A stretch of 34,936 bases of DNA, from positions 1 through 34,936 of IMG/VR virus record IMGVR_UViG_3300032308_000302. One strand, written 5' to 3'. Both the position numbers and the translations under genes were made by a program. This DNA is from a virus. Shown piece after piece: positions 20,542 through 25,445 of the stretch. The notes beneath the pieces were generated by a model, which worked only from the letters and a program-made list of their open reading frames with translations, ran no database searches and was not told where the DNA came from. The number at the start of each line of letters is the position of its first letter. Position 1 is the first letter of the stretch.

Positions 20542-20761
20542 CTATTTTGATGGTCGATGTATCCCGGTCGATCACCATCTCACCTTCGCACACGATGTTC
20601 CAGTCCTCCGATGCCTTCTCTTTTTCACTCCGGCTCGGGACGTTGATCTCGACATGCTTGGCGAGATACTCTTTCTTTTCTGCAAACACCCGCCAAGCAT
20701 GCTCTTCCGTGCCCCGTCCGGGCTGGCCCCGGGATTTGTTGAACCGTATACGGAATTTCAT
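20525..20761 (-). CDS. Small basic phage protein (78 aa)
   Basis: MKFRIRFNKSRGQPGRGTEE, then HAWRVFAEKKEYLAKHVEINVPS and a beta-rich end (IVCEGEMVIDRDTSTIKIVDSTI). Its 3' end overlaps the dyad and -35 of promoter C, so transcription from upstream must pass through that control region. ATGA overlap with the oxygenase gene. Function unknown. Confidence 0.68.
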   Translation of the reverse strand: MKFRIRFNKSRGQPGRGTEEHAWRVFAEKKEYLAKHVEINVPSRSEKEKASEDWNIVCEGEMVIDRDTSTIKIVDSTI

Positions 20762-21381
20762 ATTATTTCAGGCCCTTCAGTCTGAGTTGGGTTCACCGCC
20801 ACCGATAGGTTCATATGCACAAACCGGCACGGGTCCCGGCTCAGGTTTTTGGTCAATGAATGCGGTAGCCACGCGTTGGTAAAGATCAGCGTCCCGGGCT
20901 CCGGGCTAAACAAAATCTGGTGGGACGCCGAGGTGATCTCGGTCGACTCTTCCTCGGGCAAATTGGTGATCACCTTCGCCGCCCGGGGATCGTGAATCGC
21001 AAACTTGCAGCCGTCCTTGGGAACATCCAAAAAGTAGAACGCGCTGATCTGGGCACCGCGGCCATGGATGTGCGTTTCCATCGACGACATCATCCCATGT
21101 TCCTGCGTCCACATTTCCGAAAAGTAGGTCACAAGGTCCTTCATCGCGTAACCCTGCGAATGGAGGATATTCCACGCGGTCTGAGAGACGTACTGAGAGA
21201 AGTTTTGAACGTCCGGCTCATGGCTGTAGTTCGCCGTCATGCTGATGTAGCTGGGCTCCTGATGCTCCCGAGCCGCCTCCAGATACCGATCTGACACCTT
21301 CCGCACCGGCTCTAAAAACTCTTCTTTCTTGACCATGTACACCGGGCAAGCAAAGTAGTGGGTCTCGTTCAGCGGATCCAT
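20758..21381 (-). CDS. 2OG-Fe(II) oxygenase (2OG-FeII_Oxy_5-like)
   Basis: 207 residues. ETHIHGRGAQISAFYFLDVPKDGCKFAIHDPRA, then EPGTLIFTNAWLPHSLTKNLSRDPCRFVHMNLSV, match the double-stranded beta-helix core of this family: proximal His at 104/106, the dPR strand (131-133), distal H174, and R186 for 2-oxoglutarate. These enzymes hydroxylate proteins or nucleic acids using iron, oxygen and 2-oxoglutarate, and are frequent in cyanophages and environmental phages, where the substrate is unknown. GGGAGG precedes the ATG. It has its own promoter (D). It may modify a phage or host protein. Confidence 0.8.
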   Translation of the reverse strand: MDPLNETHYFACPVYMVKKEEFLEPVRKVSDRYLEAAREHQEPSYISMTANYSHEPDVQNFSQYVSQTAWNILHSQGYAMKDLVTYFSEMWTQEHGMMSSMETHIHGRGAQISAFYFLDVPKDGCKFAIHDPRAAKVITNLPEEESTEITSASHQILFSPEPGTLIFTNAWLPHSLTKNLSRDPCRFVHMNLSVAVNPTQTEGPEII

Positions 21382-21404: not shown

Positions 21405-21434
21405 AGTCTAACACTTAGTTATTGTTTTTGACAA
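21405..21434 (-). promoter_or_regulatory. Promoter D for the oxygenase gene
   Basis: The minus strand reads TTGTCA, 18 nt, TAGACT (extended TGTTAGACT). The left dyad arm TCTAAC (21407-21412) is kept but the other arm is degenerate (GTTATT). The -35 abuts the U-tract of the terminator at 21433-21455. No 5' stem-loop follows. Confidence 0.5.
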
Positions 21435-21455
21435 AAAAAAAGGCCGCCCGGGCCT
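21433..21455 (-). terminator. Strong intrinsic terminator ending the structured RNA region
   Basis: On the minus strand AGGCC-cgggc-GGCCT is followed by nine uridines. This is a textbook Rho-independent terminator. No credible gene lies within the 480 bp upstream of it, so it probably ends a non-coding transcript, or the primase transcript after a long untranslated tail. Confidence 0.85.
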
Positions 21456-21715
21456 CTTACTACTCTTTACTTAATTTCACCCAAAGACCCCCCCTACCCC
21501 ACGGAAGGGTAAGGAAGGAGGAAGGTTTCACCCCACATAAAGTGGATCGTCATGCTACGGATTGGATACCGTATGCCCCCGGACTTGACGATGCGACCAG
21601 TCCCACGGATTTTTTAGGATCTGCCCCCGCTCACTAACTTCGTGGCTTACCGTGTAGCGGTTTCCTTCCGAGCAGCCCCACTTGCGGCCCCTACTATCGT
21701 GCGGAGTACGGTCAC
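21456..21715 (-). ncRNA. Candidate structured RNA 2 (pseudoknotted)
   Basis: No convincing ORF lies here. On the minus strand a 7-bp stem AUCGUCA (21586-21592) with UGACGAU (21546-21552) encloses a 5-bp hairpin UACGG/CCGUA (21569-21573, 21556-21560). GGACU (21599-21603) pairs with AGUCC (21581-21585) inside the same loop, making an H-type pseudoknot. Further hairpins: ACCG/CGGU near 21655, CCAC/GUGG near 21540 and UACCC/GGGUA near 21505. The phrase UGGGGUGAAA occurs twice. I see no match to tmRNA, RNase P RNA or group I introns. Its own promoter is not clear, so it may be read through from RNA 1. Confidence 0.5.
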
Positions 21716-21717
21716 CG

Positions 21718-21828
21718 GAAAAGAAAAACCCTCAAGGCTTGGCTCTCCGTGTGTCAGGCACGTCCCCACTGAAGGGGTGAGAACCAAAGCTTGAGGGCTT
21801 CGGTGTTTGTCGCCGCCTGACACAGTGA
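21718..21828 (-). ncRNA. Candidate small RNA 1 with 10-bp pseudoknot
   Basis: The predicted transcript is about 110 nt. Stem A pairs UGUGUCAGGC (21815-21824) with GCCUGACACA (21750-21759), 10 of 10. Stem B pairs CCCUCAAG (21790-21797) with CUUGAGGG (21729-21736) and continues with CUUUGG/CCAAG and CUC/GAG. Hairpin C is CCCC/GGGG (21774-21777, 21764-21767). The order A-B-C-C'-A'-B' is a pseudoknot around a hairpin. Five uridines, C, then UUUU follow stem B, forming an intrinsic terminator at about 21720. A promoter lies just upstream (21836-21864). No family recognised. Confidence 0.65.
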
Positions 21829-21835
21829 CGGGCGC

Positions 21836-21864
21836 AGTGTAAGGCAGGAAAAAATTCTTTGCAA
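21836..21864 (-). promoter_or_regulatory. Predicted sigma70 promoter of small RNA 1
   Basis: The minus strand has TTGCAA (21859-21864), a 17-nt spacer, and TACACT (21836-21841). Spacing is optimal, with 4 of 6 matches in each hexamer. The start would be near 21828, directly before stem A of the RNA. Confidence 0.55.
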
Positions 21865-21931: not shown

Positions 21932-22804
21932 TCAACAGTATACCGCTGCTTCGCTCCGGCATTTCATGATCTTTGACACCACCTCAAACAATCCCTTTTC
22001 GAAGTGCAGATCGTTCGCGTCCCAGCCCACCTGCTCAGCCATCACCCACGGCAAGCCAGTCTGCGTCGCCGCCTTCTCACCGGCTTTTGACTCGTCGTTA
22101 TCAGCAAAGATTAGCCGCTTGCCGGGTATCTGATCGGCCACCTGAATCAGGTTCGTGGCGCTAAACGTCACCACCACCGCTGCCGGGTTCCCAATGCTAC
22201 GCAGAGCGTTGCGCACACTCAGCCCGGTGGCATAGCCCTCGACTAGCCACGTCTCTTCGGTGTTGCGGTTTCCTAGATATAGAACTGCGTTTTTCGCCTG
22301 CATGCCGTAAAGCATCTTCTTTTCGTACTTCCGAGCTTGCGGGTCCCAGTAAATCGACTGGTAACCCTGCAGTTTGTTGGTCCGCACGTTGCGCATCGGG
22401 ATCAGCAGCTTGTCCTCGAGCACCAGCCCCTTTTCCTCCGGGAAGCCCTTGATCTTCAGGTAGATGTGCTCAGACAGCTTTGCAGCCCTCAAGGTGGCTT
22501 CTGCCTGCACGCAGGCCTGTTGATACCGCTTCTCTTGATCGGAGGCCGTAGCGGCCCGTTTAGAGGCCCACAGGCGCTTTTCTTCGTCAGTCCATGGTTT
22601 GGCATTCTTGTCTTGCCACCAGATCACCCTAGCCTCTCCTGACCAGTCCATGACCCACCCACGTTCACCGTTCCAAAAATAGGCACCGTTGCCAGACCGC
22701 GGCTTGTCCACCGTGCCGCAGCGCCTGATCTTGTCCGACGGGTATAGCCGACTCGGGTCGATCTCAACACCGTTCGCCCGGGCAAAGTAGATGAACTCCA
22801 TCAT
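21932..22804 (-). CDS. TOPRIM primase-like protein
   Basis: 290 residues. An N-terminal zinc-free domain with GAYFWNGERGWVMDW (40-54) is followed by a helical linker and a P4/DnaG-type TOPRIM domain: WLVEGYATGLSVRNAL with E189, LIFADNDESKAGEK with D235/N236/D237, and WDANDLH (261-267), which corresponds to the conserved DxND. TOPRIM primases make RNA primers for replication. There is no fused helicase; a separate SF2 helicase gene lies immediately upstream with an ATGA overlap, suggesting they act together. The N-terminal CHC2 zinc finger of DnaG is not visible, so template recognition may differ. Confidence 0.85.
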   Translation of the reverse strand: MMEFIYFARANGVEIDPSRLYPSDKIRRCGTVDKPRSGNGAYFWNGERGWVMDWSGEARVIWWQDKNAKPWTDEEKRLWASKRAATASDQEKRYQQACVQAEATLRAAKLSEHIYLKIKGFPEEKGLVLEDKLLIPMRNVRTNKLQGYQSIYWDPQARKYEKKMLYGMQAKNAVLYLGNRNTEETWLVEGYATGLSVRNALRSIGNPAAVVVTFSATNLIQVADQIPGKRLIFADNDESKAGEKAATQTGLPWVMAEQVGWDANDLHFEKGLFEVVSKIMKCRSEAAVYC

Positions 22805-25346: not shown

Positions 25347-25445
25347 ACGTTTCCTTTCTGTAGGGTGGGCTACTCGCTGCCTCCATCTACCCTTGACGAC
25401 TTAGTTAAAAGTCATAGATGGCATCCGCTTTCGCCCATGGAAAAT

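Follow-up and report, generated by a model that had tools for sequence, protein, structure and literature searches.

The window, by which we mean the whole 34,936-nucleotide stretch analysed here (IMG/VR record IMGVR_UViG_3300032308_000302), is a 34.9-kb virus of the tailed-phage type with portal, terminase, ParB-like, helicase, primase, resolvase and 2OG-oxygenase genes. On its minus strand, between the primase gene (21932–22804) and the oxygenase gene (20758–21381), lies a locus with the order promoter – RNA1 – terminator 1 – RNA2 – terminator 2, followed by the 2OG-Fe(II) oxygenase gene. The features of the locus are as follows:

21836–21864, minus strand: RNA1 promoter (−35 box TTGCAA at 21859–21864, 17-nt spacer, −10 box TACACT at 21836–21841)
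21719–21829, minus strand: RNA1, a knotted terminator RNA of ~110 nt, its 5′ end placed from the promoter
21823–21829, minus strand: F5, the RNA1 5′ end (GUCACUG), which can pair with F3
21815–21824, minus strand: A5, the 5′ strand of helix A, in the loop of the 5′ hairpin E (TGTGTCAGGC)
21779–21797, minus strand: B5, the 5′ side of the terminator stem (outer part 21790–21797, mismatch, inner part 21779–21787)
21764–21778, minus strand: hairpin C inside stem B (CCCC UUCAGU GGGG; 21774–21777 pairs with 21764–21767)
21750–21759, minus strand: A3, the 3′ strand of helix A (GCCTGACACA), 2 nt from B3
21729–21747, minus strand: B3, the 3′ side of the terminator stem (inner part 21739–21747, outer part 21729–21736)
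21719–21728, minus strand: U-run of the intrinsic terminator (U5CU4; UUUUUCUUUU)
21711–21717, minus strand: F3 (CGGUGAC), directly after the U-run and present only in read-through transcripts
21476–21710, minus strand: RNA2 type 1, a structured non-coding RNA with an H-type pseudoknot (loop strand ~21587–21593 with 21546–21552)
21433–21458, minus strand: terminator 2, after RNA2, from a terminator scan (also delimited as 21438–21458)
21405–21434: a new promoter past RNA2, from a scan of the window

Helix A, with 10/10 perfect pairs (21815–21824 with 21750–21759), interlocks as a pseudoknot with stem B, a two-part stem of ~20 bp whose outer (21790–21797/21729–21736) and inner (21779–21787/21739–21747) halves are separated mid-way by a C·C mismatch (21789/21737). 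Furthermore, the 5′ end of RNA1 has a 7-bp match just beyond the U-run (F5/F3, 21823–21829 with 21711–21717). The fold energy of RNA1 has a z-score of −4.1 against 200 shuffles, and a search for the knot-plus-terminator layout returned one match in the real window and none in 2.8 Mb of dinucleotide-shuffled window. An initial annotation of this DNA had described the promoter, knot, stem, hairpin and U-run, and each is present at the position it gave; it had missed the 5′ hairpin around A5, the 7-bp F match and RNA2 at 21476–21710. Its view of a non-coding, pseudoknotted RNA is borne out both by the layout, which beats the shuffles, and by the alignment of relatives, in which the indels are not multiples of three, so that the 73-aa ORF overlapping RNA1 is not conserved coding sequence. 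Its remark that the resemblance to HDV-like ribozymes is superficial holds as well. While the nested helix order does recall P1–P2–P3, a self-cleaving ribozyme of this kind is hardly conceivable: helices A and B have the wrong lengths, a terminator stem ending in a U-run stands in place of P2, no catalytic core is conserved across the subfamilies described below, and the HDV-type covariance models of Rfam found no match in the window.

The RNA1 promoter matches the sigma-70 consensus at 8/12 positions in the window and is absent from the promoter-scan list, but its boxes, to which the initial annotation had assigned the RNA, are kept in close relatives (TTGCAT/A ... TACACT or TATTAT), and in more distant relatives TTGACA/TATAAT-like boxes occupy the same place. 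The spacer between the boxes is often palindromic and differs among phages (L033, L045, L058, L026), examples being ACACGTC..GACGTGT and ACAAGCA..TGCTTGT; a search for these palindromes as a repeated operator found no further copies within the loci of 12 relatives. In several relatives, tRNA genes or clusters lie immediately upstream of RNA1 (L093 8152–8727, L073 10348–10869, L075 and L012); the window has none there. We also considered a replication origin or primer RNA at this locus and rejected the idea, as the cumulative GC skew of Manatee Spring phage MW202545 has no extreme there.

Since the sequence of the family changes fast, direct searches for RNA1 relatives were unsuccessful, both with blastn in phages and with nhmmer and blastn in 90 loci. 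Relatives were instead obtained through synteny with the neighbouring primase gene, a structure descriptor and short conserved patterns: in loci with a homologous primase or helicase, an RNA built to the same plan lies downstream of primase. The family so assembled comprises more than 110 distinct sequences among IMG/VR phages of the Burkholderiales type, and its carriers form a group of freshwater phages. Manatee Spring phage MW202545, Acidovorax phage AP1 and prophages of Comamonas and Variovorax are the relatives that could be named or placed, and therefore the hosts are probably Burkholderiales; RNA1 itself was not detected in AP1 or in the Comamonas and Variovorax prophages. A covariance model built from subgroup G1 only (model R1) matches subgroups G2 (E down to 4e-11) and G3 (1e-4). 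On the window, R1 gives a full-length match of 28.8 bits (E 2e-4), to be read against the 24–30 bits that the antisense of true members also attains and the inclusion of the first bases of RNA2 in the model. A search with R1 at reduced sensitivity, run without a positive control, gave no match in 251 Comamonadaceae genomes, and we know of no host copy. No Rfam family has the RNA1 layout, as judged by scans of the window and relatives, in agreement with the initial annotation, which knew of none; literature searches found no published description, and this strongly conserved family is apparently unreported.

Comparison of the relatives supports the predicted structure. All share a fixed plan: a 5′ hairpin E with A5 in its loop, the terminator stem B, A3 abutting B3, and the U-run; the terminator and U-run are kept across all of the sequence-divergent subfamilies. 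In subgroup G1 (40 distinct sequences), 91.5% of the positions in helices A, B, C and D are paired and 19/36 pairs have changed on both sides, exceeding all 500 shuffles and lying far above slid registers; for helix A alone, both sides have changed in 5/8 pairs. Column counts for E and F on the sequence alignment came out non-significant, probably because the alignment breaks there, and a swap test was then done per sequence, pairing each strand with its own or with another sequence's partner: this yielded z-scores of −10.8 for A5/A3 and −10.2 for E5/E3. For helix F the swap test across relatives gave −3.6, with a column count not above shuffles, and some members of the family have a weak F or none. 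The subgroup of the window (12 sequences) was collected by patterns inside B, which makes helix A the only independent test there; helix A is 100% paired, in six fully compensated versions (GUGUCAGGC, GUGUCGGGC, GUGACGGCA, GUGUGCGCA, GUGCGGGCA and GUAUGGGCA), while stem B is nearly invariant. Compensating rather than random changes in homologues had been proposed as a test by the initial annotation, and it is compensating changes that we find in helix A of the window subgroup and in G1.

Over 110 members, stem B has a median total of 21–23 bp, with 11–12 outer pairs, a mismatch and 8–10 inner pairs. The mismatch is highly regular: 1×1 in 52/52 sequences of G1 and in 10/10 of the window group, and 2×2 in 41/45 of G2. 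In G1, G2 and the window group, a median of 0–2 nt separates A3 from B3, and E is linked to B through a median of 2.5–9 nt. Helix A measures 7–11 bp in the family, a range into which the window (10 bp, gap of 2 nt) fits, as it does with its terminator stem carrying the mid-stem mismatch, its U-run and the RNA2 that follows directly. In hairpin C, loop and length vary and pairing is mostly kept (81%). The E loop is variable in sequence and mostly taken up by helix A, and highly conserved unpaired residues common to all subfamilies, which could mark a ligand site, were not found. In most relatives RNA1 lies immediately downstream of the primase gene. This position would suit a plain terminator or insulator that stops transcription of the primase operon or from upstream, the knot merely stabilising it, but we regard that role as quite improbable: RNA1 comes with a separate promoter ahead of the knot, RNA2 would be cut off too, and a 22-bp stem with a covarying pseudoknot of 7–11 bp far exceeds what termination needs.

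RNA2 is a conserved structured RNA in its own right. On an alignment of the window with 37 relatives, 27 pairs of RNA2 type 1 were tested on 28 sequences: 96.6% of the cells were paired, and 17/27 pairs had changed on both sides; fold-energy z-scores did not separate RNA2 from controls, whereas covariation did. Type 1 is present in at least 120 viral contigs (L002–L250 and the window), and long insertions of peripheral stems occur in some of them (L005, L013 and L033, for example). The RNA2 of the window has no Rfam match, the gathering score of Betaproteobacteria-1 included. As a rule, RNA2 begins ~10–20 nt after the U-run, and in the window the distance is below 20 nt. This is too short for a separate promoter, and transcription of RNA2 most likely relies on polymerase that starts at the RNA1 promoter and passes terminator 1. 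A selection made on RNA1 only gave 44 contigs, of which 43 have an RNA2 directly behind it; the 44th is cut by the contig end. The 43 RNA2s comprise 24 type-1-like RNAs, nine of type 2, four of type 4 (L132 by visual assignment), three of type 7 and three of type 3. Conversely, the descriptor finds RNA1 in 77/84 distinct upstream regions of type 1, and four more were recognised by eye. In all, at least five unrelated types of RNA2 follow RNA1.

Type 2 in the relatives is Betaproteobacteria-1 of Rfam (RF02932, 86–101 bits), a family that reportedly goes back to Weinberg 2017. It is a type of downstream partner and not RNA1, and the RNA2 of the window differs from it. Behind the phage primase gene of L008, L010, L044 and L093, this RNA appears ~100 nt longer than the Rfam model. 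The large structured RNAs behind RNA1 also include type 3 (L011, L028, L029, L068, L112), type 4 (L035, L045, L132), type 5 (L265, L272, L275) and type 7 (L127, L136); by eye, these four types are unrelated to one another. None of those scanned has an Rfam match even at a loose threshold, so that an RNase P-like or other known identity was dismissed. Some loci have additions next to RNA2: an extra hairpin (GGGACTAGG..GGGTTAGCGCC..GTGAGCAGTCCTAGTTC) between RNA1 and RNA2 in L026, L144, L186, L191 and L243, a small ORF starting with MLSQKLFLPMSN in the same place in L268 and L269, and an int-alpA RNA (RF02996), barely over threshold, directly after RNA2 type 1 in L185 (3397–3470).

The adjacency of RNA1 and RNA2 (43/44 and 77/84) speaks for a cis-acting leader or attenuator, and a generic leader would fit an element that stands before five or more unrelated types of RNA2. 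In Acidovorax phage AP1 and in the Variovorax prophage, primase is followed directly by type-2-like RNA2 with no RNA1 between them, and RNA1 therefore seems to be an added control element, or front end. We propose, at about even confidence and from sequence comparison, that RNA1 attenuates transcription in cis, as the 5′ leader that gates RNA2 within a non-coding transcription unit of the phage. RNA1 represents a new RNA family, and its most likely role is that of attenuator of a non-coding partner RNA. The 'self-contained small-RNA gene' of the initial annotation stands as regards its promoter, knot and terminator, which are real, and not as regards its independence, as RNA2 comes directly after it in 43/44 contigs. 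An action on the host or on packaging, which that annotation had also suggested, is unsupported.

How might such an attenuator work? During transcription hairpin E and helix A would fold first and brace the inner half of stem B. With a short or absent linker between E and the outer end of B, this brace would hinder or delay closure of outer B, and the polymerase would read on into RNA2. Were a protein, a second RNA or an altered transcription rate to make the E loop or A3 unavailable, outer B could close and only the ~110-nt RNA1 would be made. In read-through transcripts F3 could recapture the 5′ arm, locking the outcome. The steric part of this scheme is an argument from lengths: given the short linkers, E and A appear compatible with inner B and not easily with the whole 21–23 bp, and the fixed mid-stem mismatch may mark the boundary between inner and outer B. 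In the window, helix A and outer B have near-equal energies (−17.3 and −16.4 kcal/mol, respectively), and would therefore suit a switch. The knot might instead aid termination.

Two other readings of the tandem arrangement have to be weighed against attenuation. The first is a free-standing trans-acting small RNA of ~110 nt, in which the knot serves stability or the binding of a protein or target and RNA2 is adjacent because both belong to a shared RNA island. We consider this a distinctly weaker candidate, albeit a serious one. It agrees with the separate promoter and terminator, the compact stable fold and the presence here of phage RNA islands with tRNA clusters. However, RNA1 never occurs away from RNA2 in the searched sets, RNA2 would be left without a promoter about 10–20 nt from the U-run, and helix A uses up most of the variable E loop, hence no conserved single-stranded seed remains. 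The second, less probable still, is that RNA1 forms the 5′ domain of one long RNA composed of RNA1 and RNA2 and closed by F, with B and the U-run protecting or marking a processing site. While F complementarity in many relatives, the strict adjacency and the pairing of RNA1-like elements with several RNA2 types are consistent with such a molecule, the U-run after a GC-rich stem is found in all subfamilies and would be needless for processing, F is weak or absent in part of the family, and both AP1 and the Variovorax prophage have an RNA2 with no RNA1 before it. It counts against attenuation that processing might set RNA2 free and that RNA1 might have a trans role in addition.

Terminator-based leader RNAs are a known kind, and terminator attenuators normally gate protein genes; what is unusual in RNA1 is the knot, the controlled target and the exchange of partner RNAs. 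The guanidine-IV riboswitch (GGAM-1) resembles RNA1 in that a pseudoknot or kissing contact includes the intrinsic terminator stem. It is an experimentally demonstrated ON switch, its kissing hairpins include the terminator stem, and steric exclusion of the outer pairs has been proposed for it (PMC7736828). The guanidine-IV riboswitch contains nucleotides that are highly conserved and lies ahead of protein-coding genes such as sugE, whereas RNA1 has no unpaired core common to all subfamilies, stands before non-coding RNA and was found only in phages here. The Rfam scan of the window returned no riboswitch family over threshold, inclusion of a guanidine-IV model in Rfam 15 being unconfirmed. 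In type III toxin-antitoxin systems, ToxI is a pseudoknotted RNA with a terminator between the RNA and the downstream gene. RNA1 is similarly a pseudoknotted RNA with a terminator ahead of what follows, but what follows is a structured RNA, and the locus in the window has neither tandem repeats nor a toxin gene directly downstream (ToxI pseudoknots are mentioned in PMC12373285). As to RNA2, ROOL and GOLLD are large ornate phage and prophage RNAs of unknown function near tRNA islands (PMC12286853). The setting of RNA2 is comparable in some relatives; RNA2 is, however, much smaller (~220–400 nt), matches neither Rfam family and has RNA1 in front. With RNA1, orphan phage RNAs, Betaproteobacteria-1 among them, gain an operon context and a putative control element, and the family offers dozens of natural variants for studying how termination is governed by a pseudoknot within a terminator stem.

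In 11/11 relatives, a further knotted terminator RNA stands immediately upstream of the parB ribosome-binding site and ATG (a gene of 259–275 aa), at L025 3584–3675, L073 6080–6175, L032 3180–3274, L068 337–427 and in seven others. Its plan consists of a promoter, an E hairpin with a UUGGCGG loop, a pseudoknot from this loop to CCGCCAA, a long terminator stem and a U-run that leads into the ribosome-binding site and start codon. Of its pairs, 24/35 have changed on both sides and 96% are paired, and a second interlock is also present; where scanned, it has no Rfam match. We regard the parB leader as a candidate leader attenuator or riboswitch, and, as it sits at the classical place of an attenuator, it supports a cis role for RNA1 by analogy. 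More tentatively than for attenuation itself, we suggest that these phages gate exchangeable large non-coding RNAs with a self-acting RNA switch as their standard front end, made of hairpin loop, pseudoknot and terminator and perhaps flipped by segment F after the terminator. A related switch would gate the parB-helicase-primase operon, and the whole would amount to RNA controlling RNA genes in a modular 'RNA cassette'.

Finally, two further motifs recur in these genomes. The RNA-like motif GAAAGCGGATGCC-stem-GCAGCGAGTAG occurs at 25370–25432 (minus strand) of the window, within the leader region ahead of parB, and recurs just upstream of RNA1 in L267, L265, L275 and L268. A hairpin of the form CCAACACGCATGGGGATTG ... 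AGTCCCCAGCCGTGTTGG, with variable inserts and sometimes doubled, is found downstream of primase in L015, L027, L033, L045 and L047.
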